From assembly GCF_900099695.1 (NCBI RefSeq), contig NZ_FNCY01000003.1:124001-188000 (forward strand): a stretch of DNA of 64,000 nt, read 5' to 3'. The notes under the pieces were generated by a model that worked only from the letters and a program-made list of their open reading frames with translations, was not told the DNA's origin and made no database searches. Origin of the DNA: Propionivibrio dicarboxylicus (lineage in GTDB: Bacteria; Pseudomonadota; Gammaproteobacteria; Burkholderiales; Rhodocyclaceae). Made by a program: the position numbers and the translations under genes. Positions 53,478-63,337 of the stretch are shown here, piece after piece (the first letter of the stretch is position 1; every line of letters starts with the position of its first letter).

Positions 53478-53593
53478 CAACCTGGATTTTTTGCACTATA
53501 GTCTCCATAGCATCGTCAATAGTACATAAAAGCCGCCGACGCAAAGACGATCAGCGGCAATAAGACAAAAGAATGCGAACTGGGGGGGGCTCC

Positions 53594-54754
53594 ATGGTCG
53601 ATACGCTCGATTTATGCGAGAAAGCGACGGTATTGGCGGTCGATGACACCGCTGACAATCTGGCGCTGATCGCCGGACTGCTCAAGGCAGATTACCGCGT
53701 CAAAATCGCCAACAGCGGCGAGAAGGCGCTGAAAATCATCCACGGCGACGCACCGCCGGATCTCATACTGCTCGACATCGTCATGCCTGGCATGAGCGGC
53801 CATGATGTCTGCAAGACATTGAAGGCCGACCCGGCGACGCGTGACATACCGGTCATATTCCTGACGGCAATGAGCGCCGCCGAGGATGAAAGGCACGGCC
53901 TCGATCTCGGCGCAATCGACTACATCACCAAACCGATAAGCCCGCCGATTCTCGAGGCTCGGGTCAAGACCCACCTGCACATCAAGGCAACCGCCGATTT
54001 CCTGCGCGACAAGAGCGCCTTCCTCGAAAACGAGGTCGCCAAACGCACGCGAGAAGTTTCCGCCATTCAGGACGTCACCATCCTGGCCATGGCGTCGCTG
54101 GCTGAAACGCGCGACAACGACACCGGCAACCACATCCGCCGTACCCAGTTCTACGTCAAGGCACTGGCTGAACATCTCCGGGACCACCCTCGCTTCCGTG
54201 CCGCGTTGACGCCGCCGGTCATCAACATGCTGTTCAAATCAGCGCCGCTCCACGACATCGGCAAGGTCGGCATTCCGGACCGAATCCTGCTCAAGCCGGG
54301 ACGTTTCGAACCCGAAGAGTTCGAAATCATGAAAACGCACACGACACTGGGCAAGGATGCGATCGAGCATGCCGAAAAGCGTCTCGGCATGGAGGTCGAA
54401 TTCCTCACCTATGCAAAGGACATTGCCTATTATCATCAGGAAAAATGGGATGGCAGCGGCTATCCGACGGGGGCCGCCGGCGACGCCATCCCGACCAGCG
54501 CGCGCCTGATGGCCGTCGCCGACGTCTATGATGCGCTGATCAGCCGTCGCATCTACAAGGATGGCATGCCACATGCACAAGCTGTCGGCATCATTCTCGA
54601 AGGTCGCGGAACGCATTTCGACCCCGACATGGTCGATGCCTTCGCTGTATTGACTGACGAATTCAAGACCATTGCGGAGAGGTTTGCCGACAGTGCCGAC
54701 GACCTGAGCAGAAAGGCCGAGCAGCTCAAACATCTCGCGGATCAACCGGCCTAG
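53594..54754 (+). CDS. HD-GYP response regulator (cyclic di-GMP phosphodiesterase)
   Basis: A 386-residue protein: an N-terminal receiver (acceptor Asp in LILLDIVMPGMSG; Lys in DYITKPISP), a coiled-coil linker (about 125-165) and an HD-GYP domain. Its key motifs are intact: LHDIGKVGIPDRILLKPG and YHQEKWDGSGYP. It should hydrolyse cyclic di-GMP when phosphorylated. The ATG at 53594 follows a run of eight G; an upstream start at 53573 is possible. First gene of a five-gene operon, 12 bases before a Cache-GAF protein; the kinase two genes on is the probable phosphodonor. Confidence 0.93.
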   Translation: MVDTLDLCEKATVLAVDDTADNLALIAGLLKADYRVKIANSGEKALKIIHGDAPPDLILLDIVMPGMSGHDVCKTLKADPATRDIPVIFLTAMSAAEDERHGLDLGAIDYITKPISPPILEARVKTHLHIKATADFLRDKSAFLENEVAKRTREVSAIQDVTILAMASLAETRDNDTGNHIRRTQFYVKALAEHLRDHPRFRAALTPPVINMLFKSAPLHDIGKVGIPDRILLKPGRFEPEEFEIMKTHTTLGKDAIEHAEKRLGMEVEFLTYAKDIAYYHQEKWDGSGYPTGAAGDAIPTSARLMAVADVYDALISRRIYKDGMPHAQAVGIILEGRGTHFDPDMVDAFAVLTDEFKTIAERFADSADDLSRKAEQLKHLADQPA

Positions 54755-54766
54755 GACGAGGATCGT

Positions 54767-56341
54767 ATGGAACGGATCGATCATTTCGTCACATGGCGAC
54801 CGGGTTTGACCTGGTCCTGTGCCGTCGCCAGTATCATCATGGCCACCGGCCTGGCGGCGTTGATTGGACGCGATTATTGGCAGAACAACCGCTTGTCGCA
54901 ACTCGAGACCAGCGTCGAACGCGTGGGCAACACCATCATGTCACAGACGATCTCCGGCACGCTGATGGGCGCGATCTCGCTGACCGGGTTGACCAATGAC
55001 GAAATCAAGTCGGACGGCATGAGCCGTACGATGCCAAACACGCCGAAGATCAACCGACTGTTCGAGACGATTTGCGCTGCATTCGATGCCGAAGGTGTCT
55101 TCGTCGGCGATGCCGACGCCATCATCCGTGCTTCATGGAACAGGAACGATGCCCCAGTAACCGGAGTAAATTTCACATATCGCCCCTATTTCCACGTAGC
55201 AATGCAAGGCACAGAAAATGTCTATGCGGCGGTGGGCACCACGATGAACCAACGGACACTCTATTTCGCTGCCCCCGTATTTGCCCAACCGACAAAAACC
55301 ACCCCGCCTATCGGCGTCATCATCGCTCGCACCTCGCTCAACCGAATTGACCGGATTCTCGCCGGCATTCCGCATATTGCGGTCCTGATTTCCCCACAAG
55401 GCGTCATCTTCGCGGCAAATCGGCAGGGATGGTTCGGGCAGATCATCGGCACGCTATCGCCAGAACGGCTCAAAGCAATCCGCAATTTCAAGCAATTCGG
55501 CAAGTTGTTCGAAATCAGCGAACCCACACCGCTGATGCTTCCAACGACGCATGGCATCCATTCCTTCGAGGGAAAGGAGTATGCCGTCGCCAGCACTCCG
55601 ATTCACTGGAACGACCCTCTCGGTGACTGGTCCCTGGTTTTCATGGAATCCCTGGAAGAAACGGTCTCCAAGCAGAGCATCCTGACGGCGGCGCTGCTGT
55701 CAGGGGCCATCACCGCAACCATCGCCCTATTACTCATCACGCTCCTGCGCAGTCACTATCGCCAACGCGAGGCAAGCGAAAAAATCCGCAACTACGCGCA
55801 GATTCAGGAAGCCCATGCCCGGCAGAAAGAGGTGATCGCAACGCTCTCGCTGCAGTTGCAACAGAGCGACAACACCGAGGCGCTCGCCCGAACATTCCTA
55901 AGCGGAGCGCACACACTGCTCGGCATATTGCAAGGAGTTCTGTACGCCAAGGATGCAGGCGGAAAACTGCAACTGGTCGCGAGCTATGCCTGCGAAACGC
56001 AACCGCCGGCGCGTCTCGACATCGGCGAGGGACTCGTCGGCCAGTGCGCGCTGCAACAATCACGCATCATGCTCGAGGCCACTGACGACGTGCACTGGCA
56101 GATCCATTCTGGACTTGGCGAAGCGCCACCGTCCTGCGTTGTCATCTGCCCCATAGAACTGAACAAAAACCTCGTCGGCGTCCTCGAAATGGCCTTGCCC
56201 GAACGCCCGAGCGATGATCAGGAAATATGCATCGAGACCATGCTGCCAATGCTCGCGATGAATCTTGAAATCAAGATTCGTCACGAGGCCGCTTACGTCT
56301 CGAAGCAAAATGAACCGCACCTCACGGAAGATTCCGCATGA
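54767..56341 (+). CDS. Membrane Cache-GAF protein without an output domain
   Basis: A 524-residue protein. One helix lies near residues 14-35, a periplasmic Cache-like domain to about 300 (FAAPVFAQPTKTTPPIGVII; VAVLISPQGVIFAANRQGW-like), a second helix near 306-328, a short coiled coil, and a GAF domain at about 360-500 (RLDIGEGLVGQCALQQSRIM). It ends after GAF: no kinase, cyclase, PAS or receiver. The GAF matches those of the hybrid kinase and the 672-residue protein in the same operon, so the three are paralogous inputs. It may modulate the kinase by coiled-coil pairing (inference). Stop overlaps the kinase start (ATGA). Confidence 0.85.
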   Translation: MERIDHFVTWRPGLTWSCAVASIIMATGLAALIGRDYWQNNRLSQLETSVERVGNTIMSQTISGTLMGAISLTGLTNDEIKSDGMSRTMPNTPKINRLFETICAAFDAEGVFVGDADAIIRASWNRNDAPVTGVNFTYRPYFHVAMQGTENVYAAVGTTMNQRTLYFAAPVFAQPTKTTPPIGVIIARTSLNRIDRILAGIPHIAVLISPQGVIFAANRQGWFGQIIGTLSPERLKAIRNFKQFGKLFEISEPTPLMLPTTHGIHSFEGKEYAVASTPIHWNDPLGDWSLVFMESLEETVSKQSILTAALLSGAITATIALLLITLLRSHYRQREASEKIRNYAQIQEAHARQKEVIATLSLQLQQSDNTEALARTFLSGAHTLLGILQGVLYAKDAGGKLQLVASYACETQPPARLDIGEGLVGQCALQQSRIMLEATDDVHWQIHSGLGEAPPSCVVICPIELNKNLVGVLEMALPERPSDDQEICIETMLPMLAMNLEIKIRHEAAYVSKQNEPHLTEDSA

Positions 56342-59300
56342 ACACGGACATCCTCTCCGCATTCAATCGCAGTTCGCTGGCGGCGAAACTGCTGTTCGGC
56401 TTCGGCATCGTACTCGTCATCACGCTGCTGATCGGGTTCCAGCACCATTACCATCTTGATGACATTAGGGAGACGAACCAGCGCATCCACGACCGTGATT
56501 ATGAGGCCATTACTCATCTCAATGAAGCGATCGTCGCGCTCACCGACATCGAACGCAAACTACGACGGATGCTATCGCCTCACCCGAACGCCCTGCGCGA
56601 ATCATTACGAAAAAGCGTGCTTGAAGCCGAAACTGTTTTCATCAATGAAATCCAGAATGCCAAGCGAACAGTCTCCACCGAAATGATCGAAAAGCAGATT
56701 TCCGACTTCGAAAGACACTTCGACGCCTATCGGAACGAAATCGCCATGGCGCTCCTGCTCGTTGAGAGAAGCAGCGAAAGGCCACAGGAAGCGACGGACT
56801 ACGCCAATCGCCGGGAATTCCTGGACTCTGCCCGAAGAGCAGAGGCGAGCGTGCGAGCGCTTCGCGCGCTGCAGGAAGACGAGTCGCGCACGAGCATGGA
56901 TGCCATCGCTCAACGTCTGGAGCAGAACCGTCGAGTCATGCTGGCGCTGCTCGCCGCCAATCTCGCCGTATTCGGATTACTCGGTTTTCTTTTCACAAGA
57001 GCCATTCGCGGCCCGTTCGAGAACATCGGCAGTGCCGTCCGGCTTCTGGCCGACGGAAAGCTTGACGAGACAATTCCTCACACGGATTTCGACAATGAAA
57101 TCGGTGAACTCGCGCGTTCGATCGTCATCCTGCAACAAGGCGCGCGTGAAATGGAAACACAGCGCTGGATCAAGAGCCATCAGGCGACCCTGTCGGCCGA
57201 GTTGCAAGCCGCAACGAGCTTCACCGATCTGTCGCAAAAATTCCTCTCCACGCTCGCACCACTGATCCATCTCGGCCAAGGCGTCTTCTACGTCTTCGAA
57301 GAAGAACAGAAGCTTCTGAGAATGCTCGGCAGTTACGCCTATCGGCAACGCAAGAATTTCGACCAGTATTTCCGGCTCGGGCAAGGACTGATCGGACAAT
57401 GCGCGATGGAGCGCACACCGATTATCCTGACGCAACCGCCCGCAGACTACGTGTGCATCGGTTCCTCGCTCGGAGAGGCAAGGCCACGGCGCATTGCCGT
57501 GCTTCCCGTGGTTCGCAACGAGCGCCTTCTCGCCGTCATTGAACTGGCCACCTTAGGCACCTTTGGCGATCGCGAGCAAGCCTTGCTCGAAAGCATCATG
57601 CCGATACTTGCGATGAGCGTGGAAATATTCGAGAGAAACACCCACACGCAACAATTGCTCGCCGAAACGCGCCGCCAGGCCGAGGACATGAAGCGGCAGG
57701 CGGCCTTGCTTGAAGAGCAGACGATAGAGCTTGAGGCACAGCAGGACGCCATCCGCGCCACCGAAGCATGGTACCGCGGCATCGTCGAATCGGCGCCGGA
57801 CGGCATGCTGGTCGCCGACGCCGACGGGCGAATCACGCTCGTCAATACCGAACTGGAAGCGATGTTCGCTTATGCAAAAGGCGAACTGATCGGCCGCGCA
57901 ATCGAAACGATCGTTCCGGATATCGGTGCAATTCCACGATCTGCCTGGCATGCTGCCAGCAGCGACACGAAAACCCATCGCAACGGAGGCGAGCATTCAT
58001 GGAATACGCATGGCATTCAACGAAGCGGCCTAGTTTTTCCGATAGAGCTCGGCATATCGCAACTTCCCTATGCCGATAGCAAGTGCTTGTCATACTGCGC
58101 ATCGATACGCGACATCAGCGAGCGCAAGGCGGCTGAAGCGAAACTGGCGGCACTCGAGGAGCGCAGCCGCCTGATCCTGAGCTCGGTCGACAACGGCATC
58201 GTCGGCCTCGACACCTCTGGAAGCATCACCTTTGCAAACCCGGCGGCTTCAAGCATGCTGGGCTATTCCGAAGAAGAATTCACCGCCGCCGACCTGCACT
58301 CGCTTGTGCACCACTCCCGTGCAGACGGAAGCCCTTTCCCGGCTGCCGAGTGCTCGATGTACCACACCTTGATCGATGGACGGTCCAGGACCATCGATGA
58401 CGAGGTGCTCTGGTGCAAGGATGGGACCGCGCTTCCCGTCGAATACTCGACGACGCCGATTCGCAAGGACGATCAGCTGATCGGCACGGTCATCGCGTAT
58501 CGGGACATTACCGAGAGAAAGCGGGCCGAAGACGCGATGCGCGAGGCAAAGCGCATCGCCGAAGACGCGACCAAGGCCAAGAGCGACTTCCTCGCCAACA
58601 TGAGCCATGAGATCCGCACACCGATGAATGCGATCATCGGCATGTCGCAACTGGCGCTGCAAACGGGACTCGACAAGCGCCAACGCAACTATATCGACAA
58701 GGTGCATCGCGCCGGCAAAAACCTGCTCGGCATCGTCAACGACATCCTCGATTTCTCCAAGATCGAAGCCGGGCGCTTGAGCATGGAGAGTATCAGTTTC
58801 CACCTTGAGGACGTCCTCGACAATCTCGCCAATCTGCTCGGTATCAAGGCGGTCGACAAAGGCATCGAACTATTGTTCGACATCGCGCCGGATGTTCCGT
58901 CCCTGCTCATCGGCGACCCCTTGCGCCTCGGACAGATACTGATCAATCTCGGTAATAACGCCGTCAAATTCACCGAAACCGGCGAAATCGTCATCGCTAT
59001 CCGGTGCCATGAAATCACCGCGGAAAGCATCGATCTGCATTTTTCTGTTCATGACACAGGCATTGGAATGACAACGAAACAGTGCGCCAGAATATTCCAA
59101 TCATTCAGCCAGGCGGACAGTTCGACGACACGCAAGTACGGGGGCACGGGACTCGGGCTCGCCATTTCCAAGAATCTCGTCGAACTCATGCATGGAAGCA
59201 TTTGGGCCGATAGCGCCCCCGGCAAAGGGGCGACCTTCCATTTCCTCGCCAAATTCGGATTACAGTCGGAAACGTCGCCCCGGCGCATGCTTTGCGCCGA

Positions 59301-60780
59301 AGAGTTTTCCGGATTGCGCGCGCTCATCGTCGACGACAACGCGAGTGCCTGCGAAATCCTGACCAACCTTGCGCAGCGGTTCTCGCTGGATACAGATACC
59401 GCTCTCGACGGCCAGCAAGCGCTCGAAAAAATCATCGAGGCCGACGCAGCGAATCAGGCTTTCGATCTGATCCTTCTCGACTGGAAAATGCCATTCATGG
59501 ATGGCATCGAAGTCCAGCAGGAGCTTCTCAAGCTGCCGCTTTCGCGCCGGCCGGCCGTCGTCATGATCACCGCACACGGACGGGAAGAGGCTCTGGACTC
59601 GATCGAAGGCGGCGGCGTCCGGCCCCAGGCCATCCTGACCAAGCCGGTCGCACCGTCGGCCCTGCTCGAGGCGATCGGCGCCGCGCTCGGCCGGGACTCG
59701 CTGGTCGAGACGCGCGCGCACCAAAAGGAAGGCTGCAATCACCAGACGATCGCTCGACTGGGTGGCGCGAGGCTGCTCCTCGTCGAAGACAACGAAATGA
59801 ACCAGGAATTGGCGACCGAACTTCTCAACCAGGTGGGTATTGAGGTCGTCGTCGCCGGGAACGGTCAGGCCGCACTCGACCAGCTTGCCGTCGACGCCGC
59901 GTTCGACGGCATTCTGATGGATTGCCAGATGCCGGTCATGGATGGCTACACCGCGACACGGGAAATCCGCAAGGATCCGCGCCATGCCGACATGCCGATC
60001 ATCGCGATGACGGCAAACGCCATGACAGGCGACCGGGAAAAAGTCCTCGCAGCCGGCATGAACGACCACATCGCCAAACCGATCAACACCCATGACATGT
60101 TCACCACGATAGCAAAATGGATAACGCCCAATAATGCGAACGCCTCGTCGACGCTACCCGAACATGACACCGAGACGACGCCTGCCCCGTGTCATTTTGA
60201 ATTGATCGGCATCGACGTGGGCGCGGGAATGGCAACGACGCTGAACAACGAAGCGCTTTACCTGCGCCTGCTGAGGAAATTCCATGACGGCCAGATGGCG
60301 TTCGGGGACAATTTCCGCGCTGCACTCACCAGTGACGATGCGACCGAGCCGGCACGACTCGCCCACACGCTCAAGGGAACCGCCGGCAACATCGGCGCAC
60401 ATGAGGTACAGGAAGCGGCGGCCGCGCTCGAAACGGCGTGCCGGGAAAATCCCGAGCCGAGCCGCATCGAGTCGGCGCTGGACAGGGTCGAGGCCCTGCT
60501 CACGCCGGTCACTCAGGACATCGGACGACTCCTCGCCGAATACGAGCCGGAGGCATCGCCCGCGAGCGAAGGCGCCGACGACGACAGCGACATCGAAGCC
60601 GATCTCGCCAAACTTCGCGAACTGCTGAAGGAAAGCGATGCGGCGGCCGGCGACCTGCTCGACCGCATCATTATCCGCTTACCGGAAAGTTCACGGCCAG
60701 CCGGATTCCTCGTCGTCCAGAAACATCTCGACAATTACGATTTTGATGCGGCACTCGAAGCACTGGACAAGGCAATATGA
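56338..60780 (+). CDS. Hybrid sensor histidine kinase with HAMP, GAF, PAS, two receivers and HPt
   Basis: A 1480-residue multi-step kinase. Order: membrane helix near 18-37, helical periplasmic domain, helix near 204-226, HAMP, GAF (about 290-430), coiled coil, PAS at about 478-600 and 605-735. Next come HisKA ([14 protein letters not shown], His757), HATPase ([28 protein letters not shown]), REC1 ([13 protein letters not shown]), REC2 ([13 protein letters not shown]) and HPt ([14 protein letters not shown], near residue 1343). The intact HPt lets phosphate leave to a separate receiver, most simply the HD-GYP protein at the operon head. Overlaps both neighbours by four bases. Confidence 0.93.
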
Positions 60781-61256
60781 TGAACATCATGATGCATAGC
60801 GACTTTTCGGAGATTCAGACAATGGAACAGAAACTCGACGGGCAAGTTTTCTGGCAACCTGAATTTGCTACCGGTATTCAGGTCATCGACGATCAACACC
60901 GCGTTTTGATCGCCATGCTTAACGAAGCCAACATGAAGATCAATGATCACAGCCCGTCATCGGAGCTCGATCTGATCGTGCAGGGGCTGCTCAACTACGC
61001 CGGCTACCATTTCGGCACCGAGGAGCGCTTCGCCGCCGACAGCGGCTACTTCGACAAGCAGCCCGAGGAGGCGTCCGCGCACCTTGCCCAACACCACGCG
61101 TTCGCCGACCGGGTGACTCAAATCAAGCAAGAACTCGGCAGCGGCCAGCGCATTTCAAAAGCCGATCTCGTCGCATTCCTGAAGAGCTGGCTGATCAATC
61201 ACATTCTCAATACCGACATGAAGCTCGGCGCCTACCTGCGCACAGCGACGGGCTGA
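60777..61256 (+). CDS. Bacteriohemerythrin
   Basis: A 159-residue four-helix protein binding a di-iron oxygen site. Ligands visible: His in VIDDQHRVLI, His and Glu in YHFGTEERF, the pair in AQHHAFADRV, and His/Asp in NHILNTDMKLG. It binds O2 reversibly and may sense or deliver it. ATGA overlap with the hybrid kinase stop argues for coupled translation and joint function. A second ATG follows at 60780. It lies 62 bases before the next sensor gene. Confidence 0.93.
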   Translation: MMNIMMHSDFSEIQTMEQKLDGQVFWQPEFATGIQVIDDQHRVLIAMLNEANMKINDHSPSSELDLIVQGLLNYAGYHFGTEERFAADSGYFDKQPEEASAHLAQHHAFADRVTQIKQELGSGQRISKADLVAFLKSWLINHILNTDMKLGAYLRTATG

Positions 61257-61318
61257 GCTTCGCGTCGGGTCGGGGTCGCAAACATCAAGAACGAAAACAA
61301 GTAGTCCGGGGGCCGACC

Positions 61319-63337
61319 ATGAATCGTTTCGAGCGCATGCTTCAACAGCATTGGCATATTGCCTGGGGGTTAGTCCTCCTCGGTGCGGCTGTCATCGGCG
61401 TGGCCGCCGGGCAGATGGCGCGCATGGCCAAAGAAAACGATCGTCTCGAGTTACTCCAGGGCACCGCGCGCAACGCCAGTAGGGAAATCACGGAGTACAT
61501 CATGAACGGCCAACTGGTCGCCTCAATTGGCGCCACCGGCATCCTTGAAATAGGACTTTGGCACGAGGGCAAGGATAACGGACTGCTCAACAAGATCGGC
61601 AAGGCTCTTAATGCCGACGGCGTTTTTGTCTTCAATCGCGGCGGCATCGTCGACGCCGCCTGGAACATGAACGGGAAGCAATCAGTCGGCATGAACGTCA
61701 GCGACCGGCCGTACTACCACGAAGCCATGGGCAATCGCAGCAGCGTCCATGTCGCGGTCAGCCCCTTTGCCGGCGAGCGCAGCCTCTATTTCTCGACGCC
61801 GCTGCGCGGATCGAGCGGCAATCCAATCAGCGCGCTGGTGGTTCGCACCGATATCGACCGTCTACAGAATCTATTGGCCAAACAAACCGACATCGCCCTC
61901 TTCGTTTCGCCGGATGGCATCGTTTTTGCGAGTAGTCGCGAAGACTGGATTGGTCGTCTTACGGTGGCGCTTCCAAGAAGTGGGGTCTTCGATCTGCAAA
62001 TGAATTCGCCGATCGGCGCCCTCATCGAACCGTCAAACACGGAGGCGCTACCGCTGCCAAATTGGAACCAGATCACGACCTTCGCCGGCGTACGTTATGC
62101 CGTCGCCAACGCCAGCGTCTACTGGAACGACAACCGTGAGAAATGGCGGCTAATTCTGGCCGAAGACCTGTCGCGTTCGCTACCGCTGTCGCATGAATGG
62201 CGACCTATCCTGTCTGCCGCGTTCGCCACATTCTTGACCGGAGCGATCATCCTCATTCTCCTGCGCCGCAAGCACGATCGCGATACAGCCACGCAGGAGA
62301 TGCAAGCAATTCTGGCACGCCAAGAAGCGCAGGCAATCAACAAGACTCACCTATCCCAAGCCTCGTTGCACTTCCAGCAGACGGGATCGGCCGAGGAACT
62401 CGGACAGGCATATCTCGACACGACACACGTTCTGCTCAATGTCCTGCAGGGCGCCGTCTATCGCATCACCGGCGAAAAACTCGACACACTGCAATTACTC
62501 GCCAGCTTCGGCTGTACGCGCGACATCCCCGCATCCTTCGCGGTCGGGGAAGGGCTACTTGGGCAATGCGCGCTGGAAAAGAAAAAGCTGATTATTGACG
62601 GCGTAAAACCCGAGTACTGGAAGATTACGTCCGTCCTGTCGGAAACCTTGCCAAGGGAAATCGTCCTGATCCCGGTCATGCGCCACGAGCGCCTCCTCGG
62701 CATCGTCGAGATCGCACAGTTATTGCCCCTCGACAGCCGTGCAAACGAGATGCTCGATGAATTGACCATGCTGCTCTCGCTCAATCTGGAGATTCACCTG
62801 CGCAATGCCAAGACACAGCAACTGCTCGACGAAACACAGTCGCAGTCACGTGAGCTCGAAGCACAGGCCACCCGAATCGAACAGACGGCGCTACGCCTCG
62901 CCGCGCACGAAGAAACCGAGAAGAACATCCGCGCCTGGCACGACAAGATAATGGCATCGATTCCCGATGGCATCGCCATCACCTCTGATGACGGAATCAT
63001 CATTGAGGCGAACACGGCGCTCGAAACCCTGTTCGGATATGCACCAGGCGAGATGAAGGGAGAACAGCTTAGGCGCCTGCTGGGCTACTGGCAATCGGCG
63101 GCCGTTTTCGGCCAGCGCGCGATCATGTCCGGCTCACACAAAAATGGCAGCGTAATGCCGGTGTCGGTGACACTGACCGAGTTGCCGGCGACAGATTCGC
63201 AGGGATCATGCCGATGCGCATTGATCCGCGCCGAAGCGCCAAGATCATCCGTCGCCATACCGCAGCGTCCCGACTTGATCGAGGCGGCCAATGCCATCGG
63301 GGCGGAAACCCCCGAGTGCCTGGCGACACCGGCATGA
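61319..63337 (+). CDS. Membrane Cache-GAF-PAS protein without an output domain
   Basis: A 672-residue paralogue of the 524-residue protein. One helix lies near 12-34, a Cache domain to about 285 (SVGMNVSDRPYYHEAMGNRS; FVSPDGIVFASSREDWIG), a helix near 296-318, GAF at about 345-495 (FAVGEGLLGQCALEKKKLII), a coiled coil (about 495-540) and one PAS (GIAITSDDGIIIEANTALET). It ends after the PAS with no catalytic domain. Presumably it signals by association with the hybrid kinase. The ATG follows GGGGGCCGACC. Last gene of the operon; no terminator seen behind it. Confidence 0.85.
   Translation: MNRFERMLQQHWHIAWGLVLLGAAVIGVAAGQMARMAKENDRLELLQGTARNASREITEYIMNGQLVASIGATGILEIGLWHEGKDNGLLNKIGKALNADGVFVFNRGGIVDAAWNMNGKQSVGMNVSDRPYYHEAMGNRSSVHVAVSPFAGERSLYFSTPLRGSSGNPISALVVRTDIDRLQNLLAKQTDIALFVSPDGIVFASSREDWIGRLTVALPRSGVFDLQMNSPIGALIEPSNTEALPLPNWNQITTFAGVRYAVANASVYWNDNREKWRLILAEDLSRSLPLSHEWRPILSAAFATFLTGAIILILLRRKHDRDTATQEMQAILARQEAQAINKTHLSQASLHFQQTGSAEELGQAYLDTTHVLLNVLQGAVYRITGEKLDTLQLLASFGCTRDIPASFAVGEGLLGQCALEKKKLIIDGVKPEYWKITSVLSETLPREIVLIPVMRHERLLGIVEIAQLLPLDSRANEMLDELTMLLSLNLEIHLRNAKTQQLLDETQSQSRELEAQATRIEQTALRLAAHEETEKNIRAWHDKIMASIPDGIAITSDDGIIIEANTALETLFGYAPGEMKGEQLRRLLGYWQSAAVFGQRAIMSGSHKNGSVMPVSVTLTELPATDSQGSCRCALIRAEAPRSSVAIPQRPDLIEAANAIGAETPECLATPA

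Follow-up and report, generated by a model that had tools for sequence, protein, structure and literature searches.

We describe a five-gene sensory locus in Propionivibrio dicarboxylicus, found in a 64 kb stretch of contig NZ_FNCY01000003.1 (hereafter the window). It encodes a response regulator with an HD-GYP domain (gene 1), two membrane receptors without output domains (genes 2 and 5), a large hybrid histidine kinase (gene 3) and a bacteriohemerythrin (gene 4). The locus is a real, conserved and modular unit for the predicted control of cyclic di-GMP (c-di-GMP), a biofilm-regulating messenger. Its conserved part consists of three genes, namely the HD-GYP regulator, an outputless Cache-GAF protein and a 4HB-HAMP-GAF hybrid kinase, to which the hemerythrin and the second Cache-GAF-PAS protein (gene 5) are accessories. 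We propose, with a probability of about 0.5, that these genes constitute a multi-receptor phosphorelay controlling an HD-GYP c-di-GMP phosphodiesterase, with the outputless receptors and the hemerythrin acting on the gene 3 kinase.

In two-component systems, each kinase is usually assumed to have a single input. In this locus, outputless receptors are conserved beside one kinase across several bacterial classes, and three natural fusions tell us which kinase family they belong to. These fusions make signalling by an outputless receptor directly testable, and represent an unusually clear natural experiment. Further, oxygen or redox sensing by a hemerythrin would here be linked to an HD-GYP enzyme via a kinase, with no need for fusion of the two.

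A three-gene core and its variants

All five open reading frames (ORFs) of the locus are confirmed (Table 1), with domain calls taken from Pfam and NCBIfam profiles. Successive intergenic gaps are 12, -4, -4 and 62 bases, and ATGA overlaps join gene 2 to gene 3 and gene 3 to gene 4. A preliminary description of this DNA had reported five genes on one strand with two such overlaps, and had read them as one coherent sensory operon; both statements hold. An alternative start for gene 1 is an in-frame ATG at 53573.

Table 1. Positions in the window of the five genes and of the homopolymer that precedes them.
Feature	Position	Strand	Description
Gene 1	53594..54754	+	386 aa; REC-HD-GYP response regulator; Pfam REC-HD_5
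Gene 2	54767..56341	+	524 aa; putative DctB-like dCache, two transmembrane (TM) helices, signalling helix, GAF; without output domain
Gene 3	56338..60780	+	1480 aa; hybrid histidine kinase, 4HB_MCP-TM-HAMP-GAF-PAS-PAS-HisKA-HATPase-REC-REC-HPt
Gene 4	60777..61256	+	159 aa; free-standing bacteriohemerythrin
Gene 5	61319..63337	+	672 aa; second outputless receptor, putative DctB-like dCache-TM-GAF-PAS
G8 homopolymer	53582..53589	+	directly 5′ of the gene 1 start codon

Related genomes and loci are coded G and L, respectively, and a run is the same-strand series of genes round a Cache-GAF gene. Among 300 genomes of the order, gene 2 has a single strong full-length match outside its own genome (G139; 39% over 504 residues). 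Among 297 genomes of the family, nine besides its own carry full-length matches (37-58%), with weaker matches in G432 and G474 (32%). The preliminary description had proposed a search for the five-gene order in Rhodocyclales. That order does recur in G397, a member of the same genus whose gene 3 is 80% identical, but among the 297 family genomes it is found only there and in P. dicarboxylicus itself, and the exact set is therefore rejected as the conserved unit (the G341 contig, at 3.7 kb, is too short for the order to be judged).

The three-gene core is not a speciality of Rhodocyclales, since it is present in Alpha- and Betaproteobacteria and in Magnetococcales. A scan of named genomes yielded 68 loci, including those of Paramagnetospirillum, Magnetospirillum, Magnetococcales, Chitinilyticum, Deefgea, Rhodoferax, Duganella, Terasakiella and Propionivibrio, and the core is common to many freshwater and magnetotactic bacteria. 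According to custom profiles, 52 of these loci carry a Cache-GAF ORF, and these are the 52 relatives counted throughout.

In 47 of the 52, the Cache-GAF protein adjoins, or is fused to, a 4HB-GAF-type kinase or its 4HB-GAF part. The kinase lies immediately downstream in 25, beyond an intervening CheB-CheR gene in two, and upstream in eight, some of these cut by a contig end. In nine others the downstream 4HB-GAF protein is truncated at the contig end, or else split or shortened, and in three the receptor and kinase are fused. A 4HB/HAMP-GAF protein follows the Cache-GAF gene in 33 relatives, and 28 of these retain exactly the 4-base overlap seen between genes 2 and 3. Given this overlap and the identical order in G397, the gene arrangement is not a product of chance. 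Scattered and unlinked orthologues had been named as evidence that would speak against the operon; for the three-gene core, linkage is what we observe.

The fusions indicate where the outputless receptors signal. In L131, L137 and L140, a Cache-GAF region 34-35% identical to gene 2 forms the front of a kinase within one chain. The HisKA domains of these fused kinases are 72-75% identical to that of gene 3, and a REC-HD-GYP gene is next, or next but one, to each. A separate 4HB-GAF kinase adjoins the fused one in L131 and L137. The outputless receptor therefore belongs with the gene 3 kinase family and its HD-GYP output.

Conservation is uneven along this pathway. Across 16 loci with all three genes, identity to the P. 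dicarboxylicus locus is 85% for HisKA, 75% for HD-GYP and 68% for the gene 1 REC, versus 42% for Cache and 20% for 4HB. Consequently, the output appears fixed while the inputs change.

Around the core, loci range from minimal to greatly expanded. A 4HB-GAF-HPt kinase and a REC-HD-GYP protein occur with no Cache-GAF gene in the available stretch at 7 of 18 hand-picked solitary-kinase loci, and this pair looks like the minimum system; L209 and L220 resemble such loci and failed the domain filter. At least two outputless GAF proteins lie in the run of 21/52 relatives, a CheB-CheR gene in that of 9/52, and some runs hold a second kinase. Several relatives have a longer Cache-GAF protein, with an added PAS, PocR or hemerythrin domain. 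CheB-CheR genes are found within the expanded relatives L103, L105, L109, L111, L114, L117, L125, L127, L128, L139, L141 and L090. No methyl-accepting chemotaxis protein signalling motif was found in these loci by the single pattern used (L090 was not screened), and methylation of their 4HB receptors is a possibility. In another expanded locus, a Peripla_BP_4 periplasmic-binding-protein gene (L086:1140-2774) directly upstream of the first kinase suggests a further periplasmic input. Cache-GAF-PAS homologues without a recognised adjoining kinase occur in Magnetospirillum molischianum and M. fulvum (L148, L149 and L154).

The hemerythrin as a likely partner

Gene 4 scores 104.4 bits against the bacteriohemerythrin profile NF033749 (cut-off 84) and has the full set of di-iron ligand motifs (H, HxxxE, HxxxH and HxxxxD). 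These ligands are kept in every hemerythrin copy of the related loci that is complete in the ORFs. The earlier proposal that the hemerythrin is part of the system is supported by its linkage, since it is present in 7/52 relatives, as well as in the P. dicarboxylicus locus, G397 and G362, and is always inside the run, with none elsewhere in those loci. It is also supported by fusion: in L113 and L090 the hemerythrin is built into a receptor with the architecture Cache-GAF-PAS-HHE-PocR. L110 shows a 4-base overlap between the hemerythrin gene and a GAF gene. At the hemerythrin density of the P. dicarboxylicus genome, 1.85 occurrences would be expected within runs against the seven seen (Poisson P 0.003), this null being a rough one that uses the density of one genome and related loci; the placement of all seven inside the run gives, by base fractions, a P of only 0.028. 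Although the statistics are modest, we judge a chance neighbour unlikely, and the hemerythrin is likely a real partner of the system.

Its phylogeny points to more than one recruitment. The P. dicarboxylicus and G397 copies group with those of L124, L117 and three Magnetococcales, together with one paralogue from the P. dicarboxylicus genome (support 95/99). The fused L113 and L090 copies are sisters placed elsewhere, with another such paralogue (99/99), while the placement of L112 is unsettled. There have thus been two or more recruitments of hemerythrin to the locus, perhaps three, and the fused copies may reflect one event. The number of origins leaves the odds of the phosphorelay unaffected, because that reading rests on linkage and fusion.

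The alternative that survives best, although we think it unlikely, is that the hemerythrin handles oxygen or iron locally, as a scavenger or as an iron donor to the metal-dependent HD-GYP enzyme, instead of serving as a sensor for the kinase. Gene 4 is free-standing and its genome holds 17 hemerythrin matches; moreover, HD-GYP enzymes require metal, and Bhr-HD-GYP is described as having iron in both of its domains (PMC9388753). Arguing against this alternative are the placing of the hemerythrin inside the Cache-GAF-PAS-PocR receptors of L113 and L090, which is a sensory position, and the overlap with a GAF gene in L110.

The genome as a whole (4.53 Mb in 44 contigs) invests heavily in both protein types, having 17 matches to hemerythrin and 16 to HD-GYP. 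In L164, a 487 aa ORF on the minus strand encodes an HD-GYP protein that ends in a hemerythrin domain, the reverse of the domain order in Bhr-HD-GYP of Ferrovum.

Receptors, kinase and regulator

The preliminary description held that three of the proteins share one GAF module. Indeed, the GAF domains of genes 2, 3 and 5 match one another at 68-93 bits, versus at most 10 bits against other GAF proteins of the same genome (the loci of 10 further GAF_2 matches). Within this genome, generic GAF likeness is therefore rejected as the cause of the similarity. No solved structure for the gene 3 GAF region was found by sequence search, so we propose no GAF ligand. A different cluster containing the same GAF subfamily occurs in L210, L215, L217 and L219, where it comprises a GAF-HisKA-REC-REC-REC kinase, a separate CheR and, mostly, CheB; hemerythrin genes lie near it in L215 and L217.

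Genes 2 and 5 are homologous across about 500 residues (31% identity). Their periplasmic domains score 23.6 and 40.8 bits, respectively, against Pfam dCache_1, under its 45-bit cut-off, yet both appear to be of the DctB type. The DctB sensor domain (3by9) is matched in a PDB sequence search by gene 2 (E 1.4e-13, the first match) and by gene 5 (E 1.6e-7). For gene 2, it is also the best fold match of a predicted model (mean predicted local distance difference test 92.5), the third match being the succinate-bound structure. Since the Cache domains are probably DctB-like, a carboxylate is the best guess for their ligand. A literature search on DctB ligand residues gave none suited to comparison, and one linking Propionivibrio with dicarboxylates brought up no paper whose title concerns that link. 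DctB thus offers the closest dCache by sequence and fold, but it is described as a kinase in its own right, its regulator being DctD (PMC4077058), whereas genes 2 and 5 lack a kinase part. That catalytic part would be supplied by gene 3, whose own receivers and HPt, claimed earlier, are confirmed by Pfam (REC-REC-HPt). A motif search finds its phosphorylation motifs intact (SHEIRTP, DTGIG, the receiver motifs and LAHTLKG).

It is improbable, in our judgement, that the receptors encoded by genes 2 and 5 have decayed or serve as decoys, playing no part in signalling and remaining from kinase duplications, as rpfH seemingly does. RpfH resembles the input of RpfC yet is reported to have "no apparent regulatory role" (PMC3749722). 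Minimal loci with only a kinase and an HD-GYP protein manage without outputless receptors, and gene 5 looks like a receptor truncated beyond its first PAS, its GAF-PAS half being as similar to the kinase (31% over 342 aligned positions) as gene 5 is to gene 2. Nevertheless, many lineages have full-length outputless Cache-GAF proteins, and an alignment of 41 sequences shows 26 invariant columns. Those of WNDPxGxW and the YAA stretch doubled as search patterns and are biased, although the 11 sequences found without the patterns keep both too. Decay would preserve neither these columns nor the 4-base overlap with the kinase gene. Several relatives have, furthermore, extended the protein with PAS, PocR or hemerythrin domains.

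Gene 1 retains intact HDIGK and WDGSGYP motifs, and on these is predicted to be an active c-di-GMP phosphodiesterase. As previously noted, no other free-standing receiver in the operon carries an output. Its closest solved HD-GYP relative is 4r8z (E 8e-64), which we take to be PA4781 of Pseudomonas aeruginosa. In PA4781, the unphosphorylated REC is described as masking the HD-GYP active site, and the non-consensus residue Glu314 is said to weaken c-di-GMP binding (PMC3774798). Unlike PA4781, gene 1 carries Ala where our reading of the alignment places Glu314.

In a tree of HD-GYP proteins, 26 of the 32 rows from these loci, including that of P. dicarboxylicus, fall into one group that contains none of the 14 paralogues from its genome in the tree. 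The support of this group (90/89) is under the tree tool's strong-support mark, the tree carries a long-branch warning, and 6/32 rows lie outside. L156, L168 and one of the two L130 rows are just outside the group, with one P. dicarboxylicus paralogue, and three rows are far off.

Proposed mechanism and known systems

We infer a scheme in which the gene 3 hybrid kinase would be the sole catalytic receptor. Genes 2 and 5 would be kinase-less receptor halves. Binding of small carboxylates to their periplasmic Cache domains would be signalled across the membrane to a GAF that shares its subfamily with the GAF of the kinase. Through this GAF they may join gene 3 as hetero-oligomers, biasing its autophosphorylation. 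The gene 4 hemerythrin, translationally coupled to the kinase, might dock on the cytoplasmic GAF/PAS layer, where its di-iron site would report oxygen or redox state. Phosphate would pass from His to receiver to HPt, and then to the gene 1 receiver; once phosphorylated, this receiver would unmask the HD-GYP active site and c-di-GMP would fall.

Several observations weigh against this phosphorelay, in addition to the RpfH precedent, the rough hemerythrin statistics and the imperfect HD-GYP grouping given above. There is no kinase beside the Cache-GAF gene in 5/52 relatives. Nor is the GAF subfamily private to the locus, being found in solitary kinases as well as in a separate CheB/CheR cluster. 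Hemerythrin is missing from the available DNA of 45/52 relatives, and hence is not essential to the core. An HD-GYP gene is in the run of only 23/52; a further 22 runs reach the end of the available DNA without one, and the remaining seven do neither, two of these seven loci having an HD-GYP gene elsewhere in the available stretch. Finally, 15 other HD-GYP matches in the P. dicarboxylicus genome are conceivable targets of the kinase. That the kinase mainly targets another regulator, with gene 1 merely an operon companion, is nonetheless doubtful: those seven runs, and the extra single receiver or REC-REC-kinase protein in the runs of L112, L126 and L131, allow for it, but the HD-GYP regulators of these loci mostly form one group across classes, and the kinase and HD-GYP pair persists where accessory receptors are absent.

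No published description of the locus was found among open-licence PubMed Central papers. To that extent the earlier view that no such system had been described still stands, but the rpfG-rpfH-rpfC cluster is closer than was assumed. The input of RpfC is a different membrane domain. As in RpfC/RpfG of Xanthomonas, a REC-HD-GYP regulator with intact motifs is encoded beside a hybrid kinase (HisKA, HATPase, REC and HPt), and the order rpfG-rpfH-rpfC corresponds to that of genes 1-2-3, with an outputless receptor between (PMC3749722). Unlike in Rpf, genes 2 and 5 share the GAF subfamily of the kinase and carry putative DctB-like Cache domains, and a hemerythrin is added. The diffusible signal factor synthase and ligase genes rpfF and rpfB are absent from the six neighbours, the search for them having extended no further into the genome. 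The locus would thus operate like RpfC/RpfG, yet is not an Rpf system.

Other parallels concern the hemerythrin. In the nitric oxide-responsive HnoX/HnoK/HnoB system of Shewanella oneidensis, a free gas-binding metalloprotein acts in trans on a kinase controlling a receiver-bearing c-di-GMP phosphodiesterase, as proposed here (PMC8846402). That protein is an H-NOX haem protein rather than a hemerythrin, and the account of the system names no membrane co-receptors; conversely, no HNOB (H-NOX) domain is among the Pfam matches of our five proteins. Hemerythrin is tied to c-di-GMP turnover in Bhr-HD-GYP of Ferrovum, of which the reduced form is reported as the active one, and in Bhr-DGC of Vibrio cholerae, which makes c-di-GMP under redox control with the same trend (PMC9388753). 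In contrast to both, genes 1 and 4 encode separate chains, and in two relatives the hemerythrin is fused to a membrane receptor instead. Since breakdown and synthesis follow the same redox trend in these proteins, either sign of oxygen response would have precedent. A receptor divided over two proteins that form one complex is described for CetBA-type bipartite aerotaxis receptors (PMC12442639), which differ in being PAS-based and in having a chemotaxis output.

We tentatively speculate, with less confidence than we place in the phosphorelay itself, that such loci represent a general platform. A GAF hybrid kinase might accept, through a shared GAF interface, both a diffusible di-iron oxygen sensor and an exchangeable set of membrane receptors that lack a kinase. 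Lineages could then adjust c-di-GMP breakdown through the gain of receptors (Cache, PocR, hemerythrin and perhaps methylated 4HB proteins served by CheB-CheR), and not of kinases only, a strategy that might be widespread in freshwater and magnetotactic proteobacteria.

The flanks of the locus are unrelated to it, the four upstream and two downstream neighbours being NMO, GTP cyclohydrolase I, a membrane transporter, a pseudouridine synthase, a Gly-zipper protein and aconitase B. Scans for promoters (5 versus 3.6 expected) and terminators (12 versus 12.1 expected) were not used in the argument. The G8 homopolymer at the head of the operon is the sole run of at least seven G or C in the 64 kb window. 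Slippage at this run is a possible control of operon-head translation, and G397 (L081) has eight G at the equivalent site upstream of its gene 1.

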